From contig CALVED010000003.1 in NCBI GenBank assembly GCA_944326485.1, positions 124,001 through 188,000 on the forward strand: DNA of 64,000 bases. The letters are read 5' to 3'. A program made the position numbers and the translations under genes. Positions 35,678 through 47,257 of the stretch are shown piece by piece. The DNA comes from Candidatus Gastranaerophilales bacterium. Lineage in GTDB: Bacteria > Cyanobacteriota > Vampirovibrionia > Gastranaerophilales > Gastranaerophilaceae. Each line of letters starts with the position of its first letter. Position 1 is the first letter of the stretch. Under the pieces are notes generated by a model. That model searched no databases and had not been told where the DNA came from. It saw only the letters and a program-made list of their open reading frames with translations.

Positions 35678-36643
35678 TTAAAGATACTTTAATAAATCTT
35701 GAGCGAGTTCTTTAGCAACAGCTATTGCTTTTTTCTTCAATAAGTCATTTTCGAAGAAATTATCATATTGAATATAATCCTTAACAATTTTTCTTGCATA
35801 ACTTCCAATAGCAACTCCATTAACATTAACTTCACATTCTTTTGCTAATTTTGTTGACAAAGAATTTGTACCACCTGATAACAATATATATACAGGCAAT
35901 TTGGCATCATTAATTAATTTGGCAAAAGCAACAGTTTGAAGCGTCGAATTATAATTATTTTCTCCACCGGACATTGGTTTTCCGTCAACTTGCAATATGA
36001 CAGAATATGGTTCAGACTTTTTCAACATTTCTTTTAACATATAAATAATATAATCATCACCAAGCTTTGATCTATCTAAACAAATACTTAACAATCCCTT
36101 ATATAAAGACCTTATTTTATACCAATTATCTATTATTTCATTAGTTTTATCACTTGTACAATGAAATTCTACACAATCAATTTTTTCGGAAATTAAAGGT
36201 AAAAGCATTGTATGTGGAGCCTTATACTTATGTTCTGTAATAATTGCAGAATTTTGACATACATCTAAACATTTAAAACACCCTATACATTTTTTTTCAT
36301 CAACACTGCACTTATTATCCTCAATATATATAGCATTTTGAGGACAAACAGATAAACAAATATTGCAATTAATACATTTTTGATTATTAATAACAGCCTT
36401 TGATACATGCACATCATTCTGAAGTCCTATACTCACACAAATATTTGCTTGAGAATCTGCTCTTTTTAAACCGTTTTCAGCTGCAATCAATACATCTTTT
36501 TTTGCACATATATCAAAGAAATTAAATCCAGCCATTGCATAAACATATACAAGTTTTTCAATCTCTTTAATATTTTCATTACCTGCACCGCAAATTAATT
36601 TTAAACATTTTTTATTTTCTAATATATGTTTTAAAGTTTCCAT
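35678..36643 (-). CDS. ldpA: LdpA-like iron-sulfur protein
   Basis: 321 residues. Two adjacent ferredoxin motifs are intact: Cys90-x2-Cys93-x2-Cys96-x3-Cys100-Pro and Cys119-x2-Cys122-x2-Cys125-x3-Cys129. The N-terminal L-K-L-I-C-G-A-G-N with V-Y-A-M-A-G, and the C-terminal Q-V-D-G-K-P-M-S-G-G and G-S-Y-A-R-K stretches, match what I know of cyanobacterial LdpA, a redox-sensing protein that tunes the period of the KaiABC clock to light. No kai or photosynthesis gene is seen here, so in this organism it more likely has an older redox role. The ATG lacks a Shine-Dalgarno; TATAAT lies 9 nt upstream. Confidence 0.78.
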   Translation of the reverse strand: METLKHILENKKCLKLICGAGNENIKEIEKLVYVYAMAGFNFFDICAKKDVLIAAENGLKRADSQANICVSIGLQNDVHVSKAVINNQKCINCNICLSVCPQNAIYIEDNKCSVDEKKCIGCFKCLDVCQNSAIITEHKYKAPHTMLLPLISEKIDCVEFHCTSDKTNEIIDNWYKIRSLYKGLLSICLDRSKLGDDYIIYMLKEMLKKSEPYSVILQVDGKPMSGGENNYNSTLQTVAFAKLINDAKLPVYILLSGGTNSLSTKLAKECEVNVNGVAIGSYARKIVKDYIQYDNFFENDLLKKKAIAVAKELAQDLLKYL

Positions 36644-36694: not shown

Positions 36695-37237
36695 ATGAAC
36701 ACTATAAATGAAAAAGATTGTTTATTTTTAATAATAGATATACAAGATAAACTTGTAAAAATGGTTAATAACAAATTAATAACAGATAATGCAATTAAGA
36801 TAGCAAAAACAGTAAGAATATTAAACTTACCAACTATAATAACAGAACAATATCCAAAAGGACTTGGAAATACTATTGAAGAAATAAGAAATGAAATTGC
36901 AGATGCAAAATACATTGAAAAGACTAATTTTAGTGCTCTAAATGAGTTTTCAATAAAAGGTGAAATTAAAAAAACAGATAAAAAACAAATCATTATCTTC
37001 GGAATAGAAACACATATCTGTGTACTTCAAACAGCTTTTGATTTACTAAAAGAGGGTTATGAAGTATTTGTTATAAAAGATGCAAGTGCATCACGAAGTG
37101 ATGAAAATAACAATCTTGCACTTCAAAGATTAATGCATGCCGGAGCACAAATATTATCTACAGAAATGGTTATATTTGAACTTTTAAAAAGTTCAAAACA
37201 TCCTAATTTTAAAGAAGTACAAGCACTAATAAAGTAG
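36695..37237 (+). CDS. Isochorismatase-family cysteine hydrolase
   Basis: 180 residues. The Asp15-Lys76-Cys109 triad of the family is visible in I-I-D-I-Q-D, E-K-T-N-F-S and G-I-E-T-H-I-C-V. Members hydrolyse isochorismate, nicotinamide or other amides; the short helical C-terminus here resembles YcaC-like or mitochondrial isochorismatase-domain proteins, and no substrate is assigned. The ATG has AGAGG upstream. It is divergent from the ldpA-like gene and its 3' end overlaps the first radical SAM gene by 12 nt on the opposite strand. Confidence 0.85.
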   Translation: MNTINEKDCLFLIIDIQDKLVKMVNNKLITDNAIKIAKTVRILNLPTIITEQYPKGLGNTIEEIRNEIADAKYIEKTNFSALNEFSIKGEIKKTDKKQIIIFGIETHICVLQTAFDLLKEGYEVFVIKDASASRSDENNNLALQRLMHAGAQILSTEMVIFELLKSSKHPNFKEVQALIK

Positions 37238-38215
37238 TTTTTCAATTCTTTCATAAAGTTCAAAATAAGTACCAAGTTCAAAAGAACGCTGTTTAGTATA
37301 TTTTAATAAATCAAAAATATACTTAGGAATATTATTCTTATTTTCGTTATACCAATTTTCTTCTATATCCAAAATAGTGTAAGATAAACCATCCTCTTTA
37401 TTAGCAATTAACCAATTATCAATTTCGGAAATATAATCATTTACCCCGGGAATAATAATATATTTAGCACTAACATTTGCAATACCAGATGATGTCTTAA
37501 ATTTTGCATATTGTTTTATATTCTGTCTTACAATATCATAACAATCAACATTTTTTATTTTTTTATAAACCTCTTTACTTCCAGAATCAACAGAAATAAC
37601 AAGATGTATTCTATTTTCAGACAAGCCTCTTTCCAGACAAGAAATATATTTTATACCTGAAGAATGAACTCTAATATTTTGAAAACCATTATCAATAAAG
37701 AAAGAAATCAAATTTTCAAATTCATCAAGTAAAGCAGGTTCTCCTCCACCAAATAAAACTTTAGAATTTCTTTTTAAAATTCCGGTATCACACATTTTTT
37801 TAATTATATCAAATACTTTATATGATTTTTTAGAAAAATCCTCCGGATGAATATTAGAATAACAATACATGCACTTTGAGTTGCATTGTGACCAATGACT
37901 TATATACAAAGAGTCTATATAATTTCTTTCATCCCAAGCATCTAGTTTTAGAGAAGGACAATTCATGCAATTAGTATGAATTTTTCCTTTCTTATGAAAA
38001 TATCTGAACTTATCTTTTATTTTAAAAATTCTTTCTAAATTTAAATTAGAGCCATCAAAATTGTCTTGAACAAGCGTATGATTATTAGTATCACTACCAC
38101 AGAAACAACACATTGTAAGTTTTGAAGGAAAAAAGACAAGCCCATGTTCTATCCAAGGACAACTATAATAAAAACCTTCTTTTCTTGATAAATAATTTTG
38201 ATTTAAAACAAACAT
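37226..38215 (-). CDS. Radical SAM protein with N-terminal Cys module, paralogue 1
   Basis: 329 residues. The radical SAM core has C-N-S-K-C-M-Y-C-Y (the CxxxCxxC cluster for [4Fe-4S]/SAM) and F-G-G-G-E-P. Upstream, residues about 15-95 carry the module shared by all five paralogues: C-P-W-I-E-H-G, then C-C-x-C, then C-x2-C and a Trp. The C-terminus shares D-I-E-E-N-W and E-L-Y-E-R with its siblings and has no SPASM-type Cys cluster. The ATG directly follows the paralogue 2 stop with no spacer (AGAAGG is the ribosome site), so it is the last gene of the operon. Substrate unknown. Confidence 0.85.
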   Translation of the reverse strand: MFVLNQNYLSRKEGFYYSCPWIEHGLVFFPSKLTMCCFCGSDTNNHTLVQDNFDGSNLNLERIFKIKDKFRYFHKKGKIHTNCMNCPSLKLDAWDERNYIDSLYISHWSQCNSKCMYCYSNIHPEDFSKKSYKVFDIIKKMCDTGILKRNSKVLFGGGEPALLDEFENLISFFIDNGFQNIRVHSSGIKYISCLERGLSENRIHLVISVDSGSKEVYKKIKNVDCYDIVRQNIKQYAKFKTSSGIANVSAKYIIIPGVNDYISEIDNWLIANKEDGLSYTILDIEENWYNENKNNIPKYIFDLLKYTKQRSFELGTYFELYERIEKLLY

Positions 38216-39253
38216 TTACCTTCTCTTAAATAATTTTTCAATCCAGTTCTTTTTACGATTATAAAATACATTTTGTAAACGCTCATAAAGTTCAAAATTT
38301 GTATGAAGATCATTCGAACGTTTCTTGGCATATTTCACTAAATCAAAAATATGCTTTGGTATATTATCTTTATGTTCATGATACCAATTTTCTTCGATAT
38401 CTAAAACAGTAGTATATAAGCCAGCCTCCTTATTTGCCAAAATCCATTTTTCTATTTCTTCTTTTGTATCATTTATCCCCGGAATAATAATAAACTTTGC
38501 ACTAACAAGATATCTTCCTGTAAAATTTGTTTGAAGTGCATATTTTCTGATATTTTCACGCACAATATCATAACAAGGAACCTGCTTAACTTTTAGGTAA
38601 GTTTCTTTAGAACCGGCATCAACAGAAACAACAACATAACCTCTGATTTCATTTACTGCTCTTGCTATGGCTGGGCTGTATATTATACCTGAAGTATGAA
38701 CTCTTATTCCCCAATAATAATTATCTAATAAGTAATTCATAATATCTTCAAATTCATCAAGCAAAGTTGGCTCACCACCACCAAAAGAAATATCAGCATC
38801 AGCAGTTAAATAACCTTTTTCAACCATATCTTTTATTATTGGTAATGCAGCATATTTTTTCTTATTATCAAAATCTTCTGGATGTACAGATGAAAAACAA
38901 TATATACACTTTGAATTACAATTAGACCAATGACTTATATATAGATTATTAATATATCTACCGCCATCATTCCAATTATCTTCTTTTAAGAAGGGACAAC
39001 CTATACAATTTTTATGTATTTTTCCTTTCTTATGGAATTTTCTATACATCTCTTTTATTTTAAATATTCTGTCCCAATCTATGTTTTGTCCAACATAGTT
39101 ATTTCTTAAAAGAGTGTGACCACCAGATAAATGTCCACATATACAACAATTTGCAATTTTATATTGAAAAAAAACAAGCCCATGTTCAATCCAAGGACAA
39201 CTATAATAACAACCTTCTTTTTTACTTACATACTCTTCTTTATATATGAACAT
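38216..39253 (-). CDS. Radical SAM protein with N-terminal Cys module, paralogue 2
   Basis: 345 residues and the closest sibling of paralogue 1: both open with a K-E-G-x-Y-Y-S-C-P-W-I-E-H-G-L stretch. The radical SAM cluster is C-N-S-K-C-I-Y-C-F, followed by F-G-G-G-E-P. The N-terminal Cys module is complete. It differs by a short basic C-terminal tail (K-N-W-I-E-K-L-F-K-R-R), which could touch a membrane or nucleic acid. GAGGG precedes the ATG. The gap to the upstream paralogue 3 stop is 26 nt. Recent duplication with paralogue 1 is likely. Confidence 0.85.
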   Translation of the reverse strand: MFIYKEEYVSKKEGCYYSCPWIEHGLVFFQYKIANCCICGHLSGGHTLLRNNYVGQNIDWDRIFKIKEMYRKFHKKGKIHKNCIGCPFLKEDNWNDGGRYINNLYISHWSNCNSKCIYCFSSVHPEDFDNKKKYAALPIIKDMVEKGYLTADADISFGGGEPTLLDEFEDIMNYLLDNYYWGIRVHTSGIIYSPAIARAVNEIRGYVVVSVDAGSKETYLKVKQVPCYDIVRENIRKYALQTNFTGRYLVSAKFIIIPGINDTKEEIEKWILANKEAGLYTTVLDIEENWYHEHKDNIPKHIFDLVKYAKKRSNDLHTNFELYERLQNVFYNRKKNWIEKLFKRR

Positions 39254-39279
39254 TTTTACCCTCGTAATTTAGGTTATCA

Positions 39280-40314
39280 TTAATGTATTTTTCGGTCAAT
39301 TTTAGAATATTTATAAACAATGTTTGCTCTATCATACAAATCTAATTCAATATTATTTAATTTAGACATATCTTTAGCAAATAAAACCAAATCAACTACA
39401 TAAGAAGGTATATTATTCACAATTTCATTAAACCAAGCAATATCAATATCCAGTGCCAATTTTCTAATTCCCAAACTTGAACACAACATAAACCAATCTA
39501 ATAACTCTTTATTATTGTCATTATATCCTTTTAATAAAATAAATTTTAAAATAACTCTCTTCTCACCAATTTGTTGCGATTCCAAATATCTTTTAACATT
39601 ACCCAAAACAACATCAAAAGTATCTGTTCCCTTAATTTTCTTATAAAGAAAAGATGTAGCCGCATCAATTGAAATAACAACTTCAGCTATATTTTTAGAA
39701 ATTGCATCTGCAATAGAATGACTAAATTTTATTCCTGATGAATTTATATTTACATTTTCAATACCATAATCAATTAAAAAATATAATAATTTATCAAATT
39801 CAGGATAAATAGTTGCTTCTCCACCTGCAATAGAAAATTTAGTTTTTTGATTTACTAAACCGGCATCAATTAATTGTTCAATAATAGGAATAATATTATA
39901 ATGATTTAAATCTTTAAGATTATTATCTCTAACAGCAGGACAATATATACATCTTGTATTACAATTTGACCAATGTGTTAATAAAATATTTGAAAAAAAA
40001 CTTTTCTCTTCCCAAAAATCACTTTTTAAAAATTGACAACCGATACAAGAATCAGGAATAATATTATTTCTTACCATATCCTTTAATTCTTGTTTTTTTC
40101 TTAAAATCTTATCAACATCAAGCCAAATACCATTAAAAGAATCTTCAAGTACATAACGACCTTTACCGACATGGCTTTGCTCACAACATACTCTTACGAT
40201 ATTTGCATGGTCAAAAATAATACCATACTCGAGCCAATCACAACTTATATACTTTTTTTCCCCTTTAAGAGAGAGAGAAACATCACGCAAATACTTTCTA
40301 ACTTTTGAAAACAT
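39280..40314 (-). CDS. Radical SAM protein with N-terminal Cys module, paralogue 3 (divergent)
   Basis: 344 residues from the ATG at 40314, which has AGG at a good distance; a GTG three codons upstream gives the longer frame. It has an extra basic N-terminal segment of about 20 residues before C-D-W-L-E-Y-G. The SAM cluster is intact (C-N-T-R-C-I-Y-C-P), but the next motif reads A-G-G-E-A instead of G-G-G-E-P, and a Cys that the other four share in V-x-C-Y/F is a Thr here. It is thus the most divergent copy and may act on a different substrate or have lost activity. Confidence 0.82.
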   Translation of the reverse strand: MFSKVRKYLRDVSLSLKGEKKYISCDWLEYGIIFDHANIVRVCCEQSHVGKGRYVLEDSFNGIWLDVDKILRKKQELKDMVRNNIIPDSCIGCQFLKSDFWEEKSFFSNILLTHWSNCNTRCIYCPAVRDNNLKDLNHYNIIPIIEQLIDAGLVNQKTKFSIAGGEATIYPEFDKLLYFLIDYGIENVNINSSGIKFSHSIADAISKNIAEVVISIDAATSFLYKKIKGTDTFDVVLGNVKRYLESQQIGEKRVILKFILLKGYNDNNKELLDWFMLCSSLGIRKLALDIDIAWFNEIVNNIPSYVVDLVLFAKDMSKLNNIELDLYDRANIVYKYSKIDRKIH

Positions 40315-40326
40315 TAATAACACCTG

Positions 40327-41304
40327 CTAATTATATTTAGTATTATGTTTCATTTCTCTATCTATCTTAAGGTTTGAGGCCCGTTCATATAACTCACAAC
40401 TTTCAATGTTATATTGAGAATAAGACTTATAAACAAAATCAAATATTACATATATATACTGAGGAATATTATCTCTATTCTCCTTAAACCAATTATCTTC
40501 AATATCGAATGCAATATGCTTGATTCCGGACTCGTAAGTTTTTTTCATCCAATTTTTAACTTCATTTAAATCGTCATTAACTCCAGGAATCAAAACATAC
40601 TTTGTTCGAATAAGTCCATTTTTAGCTTTGGCATAATTTGAAAGATTCTTCCATACTCTATCATAACAAGGAACATGTTTTATTTTCTCATATAGCTTTT
40701 TTGAACTTGAATCAACTGAAGTAATTAAAGTAATCTTGCCAAGTTTTAAGCCTTTCTCAATGGCTGGAGAATATTTTATTCCATCAGAATGAATTCTTAT
40801 ATTGTAAACATCATAATCTAATAAAAGATTAACCAAATCTTCAAATTCACTAAGAATAGTAGGTTCTCCACCACCAAATGTAATTGTAGCTTTTTTAGAA
40901 AGGACACCTTTTGCTATCATATCTTTTATTACAGGAAAAATATTATATGTTTTATTATTATTAAAGAAATTCTTATCTTTTTCAGTATAACAATATATAC
41001 AATTACAATTACAATGTGTAAAATGACCAATCAAAACTTCATCAATATAATCATCATCATTCCACTCTTGCTCTTTAAGATAGTAACATTCAAAACATTT
41101 ATCCGGAATAATACCTTTTTTAATATTTTCCCTCATTATTTTTCTATTTTTTAAAAGTTCATCCCAATTTATAAGCTCACCTTTATAATTATTAATTTGT
41201 ATGATGTTACCACCACCAGGATGAGAGCTTATACAACAAATTTGGACTGAATTAGAAAAAAAAGTAATACCATGTTCTAAATGTATACAACTTATATATT
41301 TCAA
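40327..41304 (-). CDS. Radical SAM protein with N-terminal Cys module, paralogue 4
   Basis: 325 residues, first gene of the four-gene minus operon. The start is TTG at 41304: it gives M-K-Y-I-S-C, matching the ATG-started M-K-Y-L-S-C of paralogue 5, and GATGGG lies upstream. N-terminal module: Cys6, E-H-G, Cys23-Cys24, a G-G-G loop, then C-x2-C. SAM cluster C-N-C-N-C-I-Y-C-Y, followed by F-G-G-G-E-P. A promoter with a 17-bp spacer lies 37 nt upstream of the start. It precedes paralogue 3 by 12 nt. Confidence 0.85.
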   Translation of the reverse strand: MKYISCIHLEHGITFFSNSVQICCISSHPGGGNIIQINNYKGELINWDELLKNRKIMRENIKKGIIPDKCFECYYLKEQEWNDDDYIDEVLIGHFTHCNCNCIYCYTEKDKNFFNNNKTYNIFPVIKDMIAKGVLSKKATITFGGGEPTILSEFEDLVNLLLDYDVYNIRIHSDGIKYSPAIEKGLKLGKITLITSVDSSSKKLYEKIKHVPCYDRVWKNLSNYAKAKNGLIRTKYVLIPGVNDDLNEVKNWMKKTYESGIKHIAFDIEDNWFKENRDNIPQYIYVIFDFVYKSYSQYNIESCELYERASNLKIDREMKHNTKYN

Positions 41305-41340
41305 AATTAATACCCATCAACTGTTTTAAATACAATAATT

Positions 41341-41369
41341 ATTATACATATAAGAAAAAACAAAGACAA
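41341..41369 (-). promoter_or_regulatory. Promoter of the radical SAM operon (paralogues 4-3-2-1)
   Basis: Minus strand: TTGTCT, 17 bp, TATAAT. Predicted start near 41334, giving a 30-nt leader with a ribosome site before the TTG start at 41304. Confidence 0.6.
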
Positions 41370-41454
41370 GAATATAATCTGACATAGCAAATTATTATCA
41401 ATTAATCTTGAATCAGTTCTAAAATTATTGTCATAAAACATAAAACAAAGTTTC

Positions 41455-41483
41455 TTGACTAAAAAAAACTAAAATGCTAACTT
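41455..41483 (+). promoter_or_regulatory. Promoter of radical SAM paralogue 5
   Basis: TTGACT, a 17-bp A-rich spacer, TAACTT. It lies 24 nt before the ATG at 41508, with GAGGAAG between. It faces away from the operon promoter within the same 203-bp spacer. Confidence 0.55.
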
Positions 41484-41507
41484 AATAAAAGAGGAAGTTA
41501 TATACAA

Positions 41508-42473
41508 ATGAAGTATTTAAGTTGCAGATATATAGAGCATGGCTTAGATTTTGAGCATACAAGACTTGAGACTTGTTGTTTTACTTGCCATTCGGGCGGT
41601 GGGCACATTACCTTAAAAACAGACTATAAAGGTGAAATGATAGACTGGGAAAAGTTATTTGAGCAGAAACGCAAATATAGAGAAGAACATAGAAAAGGTA
41701 ATATACTTCCAAACTGTAAAGGATGTGTTTTTTTAGAAGAGAAAGAATGGGATGAAGAAGATTATATTAATTTTCTTCAGTTTAACTATTGGGTTCAATG
41801 TAATAGTAAGTGTTCATATTGTTATGAAGTACAGAATAAAAAAATGTTTGATAAAATCAAGCCCTATAATACTGTTCCAATAATAAAAGAAATGATAGAT
41901 AAAAACATATTAAGGACTGGAGGAGAAGTAGCCTTTGGAGGCGGAGAACCAACTATTGCCCCTGAGTTTGAAGATTTAATAAATCTACTTACAAATAGTG
42001 GATTTAGAAATATGAGAATTCACTCTTCAGGTATAAAATTTTCTCCAGCAATTGAAGACGCAATAAAAAAAGGTGTATTAAATGTTGTCATATCAATAGA
42101 TTCTGGATGTGAAAAAACTTATAAGAAAATTAAATCTGTAAACTGTTTCAAAAAAGTAGTTGAAAATATGAAGAAATATGCTGCTGCTAATAAAAATAAT
42201 TATGGCTTAATGACTTCTAAATATATAATAATTCCAAATGTTAATGATAATAGAAAAGAAATTGATTTATGGATTGAAACAGTAAAATCTATAGATGGGA
42301 AATGGTTAGCTGTTGATATAGAAGATGTTTGGTATAAAATAAACAGAGCAACTATTTCGCCATATTATTTAGATCTTATTAACTATATTATTAACAGAGC
42401 TAATGAATATAATATGAAAGTTGAATTATATGATAGAGCTCGAGGATTAAAAGAAGGAAAAAATCAAATATAA
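41508..42473 (+). CDS. Radical SAM protein with N-terminal Cys module, paralogue 5
   Basis: 321 residues, divergent from the other four. N-terminal module: Cys6, E-H-G at 10-12, Cys23-Cys24, G-G-G at 30-32, Cys70-x2-Cys73, Trp81. SAM cluster Cys98-x3-Cys102-x2-Cys105-Tyr, then F-G-G-G-E-P. The C-terminus keeps D-I-E-D-V-W and E-L-Y-D-R-A. It is closest to paralogue 4 at the N-terminus, consistent with an inverted duplication around the shared promoter region. Gene 42581, a candidate cysteine peptidase, follows in the same direction after 107 nt. Confidence 0.85.
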   Translation: MKYLSCRYIEHGLDFEHTRLETCCFTCHSGGGHITLKTDYKGEMIDWEKLFEQKRKYREEHRKGNILPNCKGCVFLEEKEWDEEDYINFLQFNYWVQCNSKCSYCYEVQNKKMFDKIKPYNTVPIIKEMIDKNILRTGGEVAFGGGEPTIAPEFEDLINLLTNSGFRNMRIHSSGIKFSPAIEDAIKKGVLNVVISIDSGCEKTYKKIKSVNCFKKVVENMKKYAAANKNNYGLMTSKYIIIPNVNDNRKEIDLWIETVKSIDGKWLAVDIEDVWYKINRATISPYYLDLINYIINRANEYNMKVELYDRARGLKEGKNQI

Positions 42474-42580: not shown

Positions 42581-43954
42581 ATGTTAAAAATTTCTCAATT
42601 TAATAATATTAATTTTCCAATAACTGAACAAAAGAAATGCAAAGAATTATCAACTAATACAATTCAGAGCAAAGAAGAAAAACAAAATTTTGTTCAATAT
42701 TCTGCTGAAAATCTAAAAGCATACATACCTTCTTTTTCTGCAAAGCAAAAAGAAACAAATAACACGAATAATATACCTTCAAGAAATCAACAAATAAGAA
42801 CAATTAAATCAAAATTAGACAAAAATTCACAACTTTTGCTAAATAGATTAGAGCAAAATGGAATATTAGATGATAATAACTCTAACGACGGTTCAACGGT
42901 TCTTGACAATTTATACAAAATAGCAACAGAACCAAGAATAAGAGGTCTTTCTGATACATTGATAATAACTGAAGTTTTAAAAGCATTAGATAATCCATTT
43001 TCTATTACACAAAAATTTGGAGATATTCCTGAAAATGTAGCTAAGGCAATTGAACAAGAAACAGGAGAAATAATACCTGAAAAAGCAAAAAACGTAGTTT
43101 CATCTTCTTGTGTAGTTGCAAGTATGGAATTTAATCTTGCAAGCAAAAAACCGGCGGAATTTGTAAGATTTGCACAAGGATTATCAAGTAATAATTACTC
43201 TGTAACTAAAAACATTAAAATGTCTGATATTTCAAGCGGAGTAGCAGAAGGGTTATGGAAGCTTAGAGAATTTAATACAGAAAGTGAACTTAATAATTGG
43301 GAAGATATAACAATAAAATTAAAACCAGATAGAAATGCAATTGTAAGAGCTCGTGTTCAAACATCCTATAAAGATCCAAATGAACGTTCTTGCATTGATG
43401 TTTTAATTCAATCAGCATTGCTGAATTTAGGTTCACAAAATACATATGATGCAATCATAGATGAAAGAACAGGTAAATTTAATCCGGATAAAAGCGGTTT
43501 AACAGATTTCGAAAAAACATTTGTTGAAGAAGTTGTATTCGAAAATCCGAAAATTTCTGTTGTATATCAAAACTTAGATGAAAATGGATATTTAACAGGT
43601 TATAATTGTGAACCGCAAGAAACAAAGCAACATATATTAAAATCTTTAGAATTAGGCCAAAATGTAATTGTGGGATATACACATCTTGACGAAAATAACA
43701 AAGTTGATGGTGGTCATGAAATAACAATAATTGGCTATGAAAAAGACGAAAATGGCAAAGGCTTCTTTATTTGTAATGATACAGATGATAATAAAGATGC
43801 ACCTGTAAGTATAAGTGAAGAAACTTTATTACCATTGATTCACCATGCCGGTATTTCAAAAGAAGCACTAAATCAAAATGATTACATTGTTGAACCTTGG
43901 CGTGAATATTTAGAACAAATAAAAAAAGATTTTACTAATAATAAAGCAGCATAA
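42581..43954 (+). CDS. Candidate papain-like cysteine peptidase
   Basis: 457 residues; no family recognised with confidence. The C-terminal half shows a possible papain-type triad: Cys in S-S-S-C-V-V-A-S-M-E-F near residue 177, His in G-G-H-E-I-T-I-I-G-Y near residue 387, and Asn/Asp in I-C-N-D-T-D-D near residue 408, with the H-x-I-x-I-x-G-Y context typical of C1/C39-like folds. The first 75 residues are polar and contain P-S-F-S-A-K, the clade-type N-terminal motif, with no conventional signal peptide. AGAAGG lies 13 nt before the ATG. It sits between radical SAM paralogue 5 and the PTEPT-repeat gene. Confidence 0.55.
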   Translation: MLKISQFNNINFPITEQKKCKELSTNTIQSKEEKQNFVQYSAENLKAYIPSFSAKQKETNNTNNIPSRNQQIRTIKSKLDKNSQLLLNRLEQNGILDDNNSNDGSTVLDNLYKIATEPRIRGLSDTLIITEVLKALDNPFSITQKFGDIPENVAKAIEQETGEIIPEKAKNVVSSSCVVASMEFNLASKKPAEFVRFAQGLSSNNYSVTKNIKMSDISSGVAEGLWKLREFNTESELNNWEDITIKLKPDRNAIVRARVQTSYKDPNERSCIDVLIQSALLNLGSQNTYDAIIDERTGKFNPDKSGLTDFEKTFVEEVVFENPKISVVYQNLDENGYLTGYNCEPQETKQHILKSLELGQNVIVGYTHLDENNKVDGGHEITIIGYEKDENGKGFFICNDTDDNKDAPVSISEETLLPLIHHAGISKEALNQNDYIVEPWREYLEQIKKDFTNNKAA

Positions 43955-44314: not shown

Positions 44315-47257
44315 TTATACATATACATCAATGGAATCTATATTTGCTTTTTTAGAATTTCCCATTTTAGATAATATATAAGATGTTAATTTAGAAGCCA
44401 TTGTTGTTTTTTGTTGTGAAGACTCAGTTGATGAAGCCGAACTATAACTATTAGTCTGTGACAATAATTCTGGTTCATCCTCTTTTTCAGGAGTTTCTAC
44501 TGGAGTTTCATCACAAGTTGGCTCATCTGGCTCGGTTGGTTTTGTTGGCTCATCTGGCTCGGTTGGTTTTGTTGGCTCATCTGGCTCGGTTGGTTTTGTT
44601 GGCTCAGTCGGCTCAGTTGGTTTTGTTGGCTCAGTCGGCTCTGTTGGCTTTGTCGGTTCTGTTGGCTCAGTCGGTTTTGTTGGTTCATCCGGCTCAGTCG
44701 GAGCTGTTGGTTCTGTTGGTTCTGTTGAGCCAGTTGGAAGAGTTGGTTCTGTTTCACCAGTTGGCTCTTGAGTTGGAACAGTTGGACAAGTCGGCTCTGT
44801 TGGTTCAGTAGGTTCTGTTGGTTCCGTTGGTTCTGTTGATTCCGTTGGTTCAGTCGGAGCTGTAGGTTCAGTCGGAGCTGTAGGACCAGTTGGAGCAGTT
44901 GGCGTTGTTGGTTCCGTTGGCTCAGTTGGAAGAGTTGGTTCTGTTTCACCAGTTGGTTCTTGAGTTGGATTTGTTGGACAAGTTGGTTCTGTTGGTTCCG
45001 TTGGTTCTGTTGGTTCAGTCGGACCAGTTGGTGTTGTTGGAGTTGTTGGTTCTGTTGGATCTGTCGGTTCAACAGGATCAACTTCTGAGCCACCCTCCGT
45101 AGGTCTTATAGTTGGGTCTGTCGGTTCTGTTGGAACAGTTGGAGTCGTTGGTTCCGTTGGAGTCGTTGGCTCTGTTGGTATTGTTGGAAGAGTTGGTTCT
45201 GTTTCTTTTGTTGGCTCTTCAGTAGGAACAGTCGGACAAGTTGGTTCTGTTGGAGTCGTTGGCTCTGTTGGAGTTGTCGGCTCAGTCGGTCTTGTTGGCT
45301 CAGTCGGTCTTGTTGGCTCAGTCGGTCTTGTTGGCTCAGTCGGCTTTGTTGGCTCTGTTGGAGTCGTTGGCTCAGTCGGTCTTGTCGGCTCAGTCGGTCT
45401 TGTTGGCTCAGTCGGTCTTGTTGGCTCAGTCGGCTTTGTTGGCTCTGTTGGAGTCGTTGGCTCAGTCGGTCTTGTCGGCTCAGTCGGCTTTGTTGGCTCT
45501 GTTGGAGTTGTTGGCTCTGTTGGTCTTGTCGGCTCAGTCGGTCTTGTTGGTTCAGTTGGTTTTGTTGGTTCAGCTGGTTTTGTTGGTTCAGCTGGTTTTG
45601 TTGGACATTCATAAGGTCTTAATGTAGCACATTCATTAATTCTATAATTAAACTGAGGTAAGTTTAATTTAACTCCATCTTCAAACCTTGAAGCTCCATT
45701 TTCATCAACAAAAGAATATGTCATTAATCTATTAATATTAATTGTGGAGTGTTGAAGAATTTCATCTAAAGTTTTACCTTCAGTATCATAATCTTTATCA
45801 ACATCAAACACACCATAATTATGAATACCATTTTTGTCTTCATACTCTGTTGCGAATATATCTAAATTTGCATATACAACTTGTTGTAATATTTGTGCTG
45901 CAAACTCATCTACATAATTAACATCTTTATTTAATACTAATTCACCATCAACAACAACAGCAAACCTGCCGTTTCCATCCGGAGAATTATAGAATTGAAG
46001 AACATCTGCCAACTTAAATACTTGACCTTCTTCCATCAATCCATCTTCATTATCATTATCAACAATTGAAATAGATAAATCATTTTGTCCATCTACTACG
46101 GCAGATGGAGAAATTTGATAAACAATACCGTCTCTATTTCCAGAGTCAACATCAGCATTTTGTGCTGCAGTTCTTAATGTTGTAACAGTAGGAAGAGAAA
46201 TGCCTAATAATTCTTTATCTGTATTTTCATCAAGAGTTCTATTTAAATCATTTATATTAGCTGTATCAATAATATCATTAAAATTCATTTCATCTAAGAT
46301 GTATTCAAATTCAGCTGCATTTTCCGGAGAATTAACAACAGCATATACAATATCTCTATATGCTTCATCTGAAATATCTTTACCATACATACCATAAATC
46401 ATATCAGAGAATGATGAATATTCACCGTCTAACAACTCACCGCCATCTTTAATTACACTGGCAGAATTAGAAGAAGGTGTATATTGAGATGAAGAATTTA
46501 TAAATGAAACATTATCAGGTTCTTCGCCCTGAACTTGGTAAACAATAGAAGTAGGCATTGTTAATAATCTTGTATCTAAAGATTCATCACTACTAGTAGA
46601 ACCTTTATATAAATCAAGCCCGCTTATTTTTTCATAACTTCTTGCTTTGTCACCCATTTCTTGATGAATATATTCAGCTAAAGATGGATTTGCTTGAATG
46701 ATTTCATCAATAATTTTATTTTTTATAGCTGATTTTTCATCTTCATCATAAGATTCTAAAGCATCTGAATATACTTTTGAAATTATCTCATTTAAAGTAT
46801 TACCACCGGTCGAATCATCTGAAGCATTTTCCGTAATAGTTACAATAATAGTTCCTTCATCGTTTCTTGGTAATTCTTCATTTGGATACAATATAACTTC
46901 ACCATCAGAATTTGTAAAATAAAATTCACTTACAGGAATAGAAAATAGAGAAACATCTGCTAATACTGTTTTATCAATACGTCCTGAATCTTTTAATGCA
47001 TCAGCTTGGGCAGCTATATCTTCAGCTGATTGAGCTGCTGACTGAGAATCAACAATAGAAGCATTTTGATTTGCATTATTTGTATTTACACAACTTACCA
47101 TTGGAACTGTCATTAAAGCTGCAGTACCAAGCAATGCTGCTCTTTTTGCTGTATCTTTCTTCCCTTCAAAAGACACATTGCTTTTTTCTTTATTTATATT
47201 TGCTTTCTCTATTTTTTTATAGTTGTAAATGTTCGGTGTAATATTGCTTATTCTCAT
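44315..47257 (-). CDS. Large PTEPT-repeat surface-type protein
   Basis: 980 residues. Residues 1-60: polar leader with N-V-S-F-E-G-K-K, then a hydrophobic stretch ending A-L-M-T-V-P-M-V-S-C, which could be a lipobox (V-S-C). Residues about 60-550: acidic and globular-looking, with no family I recognise. Residues about 551-914: P-T-E-P-T-[KRT] hexapeptides, with three higher-order blocks containing C-P-T-x-P-T and E-T-E-P-T-L-P-T. Tail: Ser-rich, then a short basic segment, no LPxTG. Thr/Pro repeats of this type usually act as extended, often glycosylated, surface stalks; that role is inferred. AAGGAG precedes the ATG. Confidence 0.75.
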   Translation of the reverse strand: MRISNITPNIYNYKKIEKANINKEKSNVSFEGKKDTAKRAALLGTAALMTVPMVSCVNTNNANQNASIVDSQSAAQSAEDIAAQADALKDSGRIDKTVLADVSLFSIPVSEFYFTNSDGEVILYPNEELPRNDEGTIIVTITENASDDSTGGNTLNEIISKVYSDALESYDEDEKSAIKNKIIDEIIQANPSLAEYIHQEMGDKARSYEKISGLDLYKGSTSSDESLDTRLLTMPTSIVYQVQGEEPDNVSFINSSSQYTPSSNSASVIKDGGELLDGEYSSFSDMIYGMYGKDISDEAYRDIVYAVVNSPENAAEFEYILDEMNFNDIIDTANINDLNRTLDENTDKELLGISLPTVTTLRTAAQNADVDSGNRDGIVYQISPSAVVDGQNDLSISIVDNDNEDGLMEEGQVFKLADVLQFYNSPDGNGRFAVVVDGELVLNKDVNYVDEFAAQILQQVVYANLDIFATEYEDKNGIHNYGVFDVDKDYDTEGKTLDEILQHSTININRLMTYSFVDENGASRFEDGVKLNLPQFNYRINECATLRPYECPTKPAEPTKPAEPTKPTEPTRPTEPTRPTEPTTPTEPTKPTEPTRPTEPTTPTEPTKPTEPTRPTEPTRPTEPTRPTEPTTPTEPTKPTEPTRPTEPTRPTEPTRPTEPTTPTEPTTPTEPTCPTVPTEEPTKETEPTLPTIPTEPTTPTEPTTPTVPTEPTDPTIRPTEGGSEVDPVEPTDPTEPTTPTTPTGPTEPTEPTEPTEPTCPTNPTQEPTGETEPTLPTEPTEPTTPTAPTGPTAPTEPTAPTEPTESTEPTEPTEPTEPTEPTCPTVPTQEPTGETEPTLPTGSTEPTEPTAPTEPDEPTKPTEPTEPTKPTEPTEPTKPTEPTEPTKPTEPDEPTKPTEPDEPTKPTEPDEPTCDETPVETPEKEDEPELLSQTNSYSSASSTESSQQKTTMASKLTSYILSKMGNSKKANIDSIDVYV
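44512..45607 (-). repeat. 18-bp coding tandem repeat (PTEPT hexapeptides)
   Basis: About 1.1 kb of near-perfect 18-bp units inside the surface-type gene, coding P-T-E-P-T plus Lys, Arg or Thr. Three longer blocks with the C-P-T and E-T-E-P-T-L-P-T variants are spaced through it, so it grew by both unit slippage and segmental duplication. Copy number is likely to vary between strains. Confidence 0.93.

Follow-up and report, generated by a model that had tools for sequence, protein, structure and literature searches.

Radical SAM enzymes with a predicted N-terminal Twitch domain, multiplied within one genus of Gastranaerophilales, and their possible role in tailoring surface sugars

In a 64,000-nucleotide stretch of a Candidatus Gastranaerophilales genome (assembly GCA_944326485.1, contig CALVED010000003.1, positions 124,001 to 188,000; hereafter the window), five paralogous genes, P1 to P5, encode radical S-adenosylmethionine (SAM) enzymes in which a cysteine module precedes the catalytic core, and they are part of a family that has 37 full-length members in the 1.9 Mb source genome. 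Sequence patterns and a structural model argue strongly for reading this module as a Twitch (half-SPASM) domain that has been moved ahead of the core. As to function, the proteins to which relatives of the family are fused, and those with which they share operons, speak most for a role in sugar tailoring, and we give an about even chance to an oxidative modification of glycans or activated sugars in the manner of BtrN, with one substrate or position per paralogue. The broader picture, in which about 2% of the genes of one gut-bacterial genus would encode about 40 radical SAM enzymes with an N-terminal Twitch, each performing a different radical modification of surface sugars, is tentative and, taken as a whole, somewhat doubtful.

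P1 to P4 lie on the reverse strand at 37226..38215 (329 amino acids), 38216..39253 (345), 39280..40323 (347, GTG start) and 40327..41304 (325, TTG start), and P5 lies on the forward strand at 41508..42473 (321), beyond a 203-bp divergent promoter spacer (41305..41507) in which no precursor-like small open reading frame (ORF) was found. The gaps between P1 and P4 are 0, 26 and 3 nt; the 12 nt given for the last of them in an earlier note on this DNA is explained by an ATG start of the third gene in place of the upstream GTG. All five proteins match Pfam Radical_SAM (PF04055) with 51.6-65.5 bits against a cut-off of 29.5 (1.6e-13, 3.3e-14, 5.5e-16, 1.9e-15 and 8.5e-18 for P1 to P5), over a core at about residues 95-260, and these matches together with the CxxxCxxC motif assign them, as judged from sequence, to the radical SAM superfamily. 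Ahead of the core, the alignment of the five places the Twitch-like module at 37934..38170 (P1, residues 16-94), 38972..39208 (P2), 40012..40251 (P3) and 41062..41298 (P4) on the reverse strand and at 41514..41750 (P5; C6, C23 with C24, and C70-x2-C73) on the forward strand, and C19, E23-x-G25, C36, C37, C83-x2-C86, W94 and CxxxCxxC (P1 numbering) are invariant in all of them. ORFs, Pfam matches and alignment agree with the earlier note that the five are intact radical SAM genes with CxxxCxxC and an N-terminal cysteine module, and its statement that a C-terminal cluster is lacking was borne out as well: no cysteine column is conserved C-terminal to the core in the family alignment, so that the classical C-terminal Twitch layout does not apply.

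Among 276 distinct homologues, C6, C23, C70 and C73 (P5 numbering) are kept in 268-270, and this conservation of 97-98%, together with the purifying selection on four of the window genes described below, is far beyond chance. Six of the 276, some of which may be short ORFs at contig ends, are without all module cysteines at once and retain CxxxCxxC, and such all-or-none loss is what would be expected if the four were ligands of a common cluster, which they very probably are. The extra cysteines thus behave as one N-terminal unit, kept or lost together, as the earlier note held; its adjacent Cys-Cys pair is invariant in the window five, but family-wide only the first Cys is constant, the second being present in 225 of 276. 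The spacing in P5, C-x16-C-x46-C-x2-C (or C-x17-C-x45 when counted from the second Cys of the pair), is close to that of the BtrN Twitch in our alignment (C169-x17-C187-x44-C232, with C235 presumably the fourth ligand), and points to a four-cysteine auxiliary site spaced as in BtrN. In an AlphaFold (AF2) model of P5 (predicted local distance difference test, pLDDT, 90.1; predicted template modelling score, pTM, 0.87), helix 7-11 and strands 12-15 and 19-21 are followed by Cys, helix 47-62 and CxxC, in agreement with the order hairpin, Cys, helix, CxxC reported for the Twitch of SkfB and BtrN (PMC6231123), and the P5 module folded alone gave the same elements (pLDDT 88.5). At the level of profiles, the genus modules appear to be linked to SPASM and BtrN only stepwise, via sister-lineage modules: the former align with the latter (hhalign P 1.3e-7, 94%), the sister-lineage modules align with those of a neighbouring family that has SPASM at its N-terminus (N-SPASM; 1.3e-4, 54%), and the N-SPASM modules have the BtrN Twitch as their best PDB match (3.4e-8). 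In addition, the sister-lineage modules match the SPASM model TIGR04085 at E 0.0014 and NF033640 at 0.0021, the latter model being matched by three of 22 N-modules (best E 0.0021). No Pfam or NCBIfam model covers the N-terminal segment (residues 1-90) of the five window proteins, and no PHROG model is convincing over the first 80-90 residues.

The five copies counted in the earlier note were an understatement, given the 37 members that a profile built from the window five retrieves from the source genome, all of which carry CxxxCxxC, C6, C23 and C73, with C70 in 36 (P5 numbering). Between 11 and 42 copies are present in 21 of the 23 genomes of the genus, namely the source genome and 20 other species (E up to 1e-30), and none in the remaining two; one or two copies occur in some sister genera of the same family and in one genome of another family. 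In a scan of 84,980 species genomes, relatives were Candidatus Gastranaerophilales records or bacterial metagenome-assembled genomes (MAGs) from gut or rumen, among the 70 loci listed, and no other genus was seen with an expansion to this extent. Phage, plasmid and viral-contig searches returned no close relatives; in a BFVD structure search, phage radical SAM proteins align over approximately the full length (TMq 0.64). In two members of 464-466 amino acids (L021:8401-9801 and L021:9855-11249), the C-terminal part gives a further match to the second half of the core, which seems to have been duplicated in part.

In the phylogenetic tree the genus family is split from the sister homologues with support of 99/96, and each window gene falls into an orthologous group that spans the sampled species, the P1 group being found in three only (orthologues in G014 and G020); the duplications that gave rise to the window genes are therefore older than those species. 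Median ratios of non-synonymous to synonymous substitution rates (dN/dS) of 0.06-0.12 for P1 (0.117), P2 (0.103), P4 (0.062) and P5 (0.069) indicate purifying selection, with dS close to saturation in some pairs. The P3 slot is fast (median dN/dS 0.339, mean orthologue identity 48%), and in some species its orthologues have kept CxxxCxxC without the module cysteines (L085:6747-7625; L088:11323-12189). Because the copies are ancient and separately conserved, the parallel substrates suggested in the earlier note are a fair reading.

The case for sugars comes from the neighbours of homologues, which we surveyed in sister lineages and across the genus. Homologues in sister genera form fusion proteins with a GT2 glycosyltransferase (PF00535; L189, 7.8e-23, and L188, 2e-19) or with a hexapeptide acyltransferase (PF00132; L182, 6.8e-10; L183 and L194 by sequence), and unfused ones lie in surface-polysaccharide operons with NeuB, a thiamine pyrophosphate-dependent carboligase, an AroB-like sugar-phosphate cyclase, an HpcH/HpaI aldolase, an epimerase, GT2, an ABC exporter, a CMP-sugar cytidylyltransferase and UDP-galactopyranose mutase (GLF). 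Within the source genome, a 45-kb array (C1:198-243 kb) contains 16 of the 37 members, interleaved with N-SPASM enzymes, GDP-mannose 4,6-dehydratase, a DegT aminotransferase, a WxcM-like cupin, two GT2 genes and large membrane proteins; similar arrays are found in G006 and G014, and copy number is 34.6 with the array's ApbA-like gene versus 15.4 without it (Mann-Whitney p 1e-4). From the fusions and operons we infer a sugar substrate, and by family membership the window five might share this role. We propose that the core cluster (C98, C102 and C105 in P5) would bind and cleave SAM, and that C6, C23, C70 and C73 would serve as the ligands of a single auxiliary [4Fe-4S] cluster with full coordination; the 5'-deoxyadenosyl radical would abstract hydrogen from a carbon of the sugar, and the second electron would go to the auxiliary cluster, as in BtrN. 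The outcome might be oxidation, dehydration or epimerisation of a glycan, a lipid-linked sugar or a nucleotide sugar, with oxidation faintly suggested by analogy. From an ancestral surface-polysaccharide enzyme the genus would then have built up about 40 copies, no two of them acting on the same substrate or position.

Several observations weigh against this interpretation. The genomes compared are mostly MAGs, no sugar genes adjoin P1 to P5 in the window, and about half of the copies, the window five included, are solitary or in small clusters amid housekeeping genes. The AroB-like cyclase was rejected as a partner in the expanded genus, where it is absent and only ordinary AroB occurs. The genus modules gave no direct match to PDB profiles, their direct hhalign comparison with the N-SPASM modules was not significant, and the module alone found no PDB fold (Foldseek, VIA). 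Finally, in some 20 related loci one member has a MATE transporter gene immediately downstream, and such a conserved pair fits a small exported product equally well.

The last point leads to the main rival, in which the enzymes would be maturases of peptides or natural products exported by MATE, as in tryglysin-type clusters. At the MATE-linked locus of four genomes, the downstream MATE carries a second member as a fusion, and early-branching rumen species have three radical SAM genes with a MATE; SuiB and SkfB are among the best structural matches of the core; and two YcaO genes adjoin members in the source genome (L021:11389-13152 and L026:8908-10653), with YcaO found in 10 of the 38 genomes searched, all among the 21 that carry the family. 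However, the best model for the MATE is the general exporter TIGR00797, with a weak match to WgkD, and YcaO is mostly not adjacent to members in other species, so that a YcaO partnership, whether for ribosomally synthesised and post-translationally modified peptides (RiPPs) or of S12 type, was rejected. In addition, no family of small precursor ORFs was found near the family genes, where intergenic space is scant, although the Shine-Dalgarno filter could have missed some; the N-module has no recognised RiPP recognition element (RRE), and the sister-genus fusions are to sugar enzymes. We therefore regard peptide or natural-product maturation as unlikely, if worth keeping in view. At one locus (L025:7749-10043), a radical SAM enzyme with the predicted N-Twitch and a MATE exporter share one frame of 764 amino acids; in most other species the MATE is separate and downstream.

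A second rival concerns the module itself, which might be a zinc-binding or structural four-cysteine module unrelated to SPASM and not an iron-sulfur Twitch. The missing PDB fold match and the weak direct similarity to SPASM speak for it, but the fold-match failure does not exclude Twitch because the module is small and irregular, and the BtrN-like spacing, the matching order of elements, the stepwise profile links and the SPASM/Twitch matches of the sister homologues argue against it; we thus consider a zinc or structural module improbable.

The third rival is that the enzymes modify surface proteins of the genus, for instance the many with an N-terminal SFxG-like motif. The 457-amino-acid SFxA-motif protein next to P5 (42581-43954) is syntenic with it across the genus, but unrelated flanking genes are equally syntenic and the fusions point to sugars, which leaves surface proteins as improbable targets. 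It is very unlikely that a mobile or selfish gene family has spread neutrally here, leaving most copies with little function: solitary copies are scattered beside housekeeping genes and the P3 slot decays, with the N-module lost in some species, but the catalytic cysteines are present in 37 of 37 members, dN/dS is low for four window genes, and the same loci and orthologous groups are maintained across species.

Around P1 to P5, the window encodes an isochorismatase-like hydrolase, an LdpA-like protein and the 457-amino-acid protein, which is of unknown function. The LdpA-like Fe-S protein (35678-36643; 149.9 bits against a cut-off of 450) lies beside the isochorismatase-like gene, and its gene is not at the matching place in several other species. 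The proteins encoded at 42581-43954 and 44315-47257 start with a stretch of 30-60 residues closing on an SFxG/SFxA-like motif (SFSAK and SFEGK), a feature that recurs in proteins of other Gastranaerophilales loci and may be a sorting or modification signal; the second of them, with 980 amino acids, carries a long Pro-Thr repeat tract (EPTKPTEPTRPT), and the length of its orthologues varies among species.

Most of what is known of radical SAM chemistry on sugars comes from antibiotic pathways, as the work of single enzymes. If the sugar reading is true, surface glycans would be a main arena of such chemistry in the gut, and the family a radical-chemistry toolkit for glycan diversity, given 11-42 copies per genome, several of them separately conserved, and single-copy relatives fused to a glycosyltransferase or an acyltransferase. 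The fusions and orthologous groups could serve as starting points for working out substrates, and the family as a test case for a Twitch domain that works from the opposite end of the chain. We found no paper on N-terminal Twitch or SPASM domains, or on radical SAM expansion in Gastranaerophilales, in the open-access literature.

The arrangement itself, which the earlier note did not know as a described one, has precedents. An N-terminal Twitch followed by the core (profile positions ~2-63 and then 103-299) is already catalogued as NCBIfam NF033640 (N_Twi_rSAM); P5 scores 28.4 bits against this model, on the core, with a cut-off of 170, and the window family is a separate, genus-expanded branch of a known kind of layout. 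The N-SPASM (PF13186) plus Radical_SAM family of the source genome likewise has its auxiliary domain before the core and shares the arrays, but differs in its clear N-terminal Pfam SPASM match (E 1e-15 to 1e-11) and in number, with 8 copies in the fetched regions versus 37; on sequence, it was ruled out as the same family.

Of the enzymes with a known product, BtrN (2-deoxy-scyllo-inosamine dehydrogenase) shares with the family the radical SAM core, a four-cysteine auxiliary site of similar spacing (here predicted) and a sugar context; its Twitch is C-terminal, however, and the genus modules have no direct sequence match to it. In sister lineages only, an AroB-like cyclase (TIGR04425, 400.8 bits against a cut-off of 400) precedes the radical SAM homologue by a few genes (L193:3040-4119; L192:1746-2846), and this pairing recalls BtrC/BtrN, which we take as a lead only. 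SuiB (Z 17.2, root-mean-square deviation 3.6 over 209) and SkfB (Z 15.0, 4.6 over 219) are among the best fold matches of the core, but RiPP maturases of their type have an N-terminal RRE, a C-terminal Twitch or SPASM domain and a precursor peptide, none of which was seen in the family, and no Pfam or NCBIfam model for an RRE or a C-terminal SPASM matched P1 to P5. MoaA (GTP 3',8-cyclase) is also a Twitch enzyme and its models are the top NCBIfam matches to the core of P1 to P5, albeit with at most 56 bits against cut-offs of 231-325; its Twitch is C-terminal with three cysteine ligands, whereas that of the window family would stand N-terminally with four.

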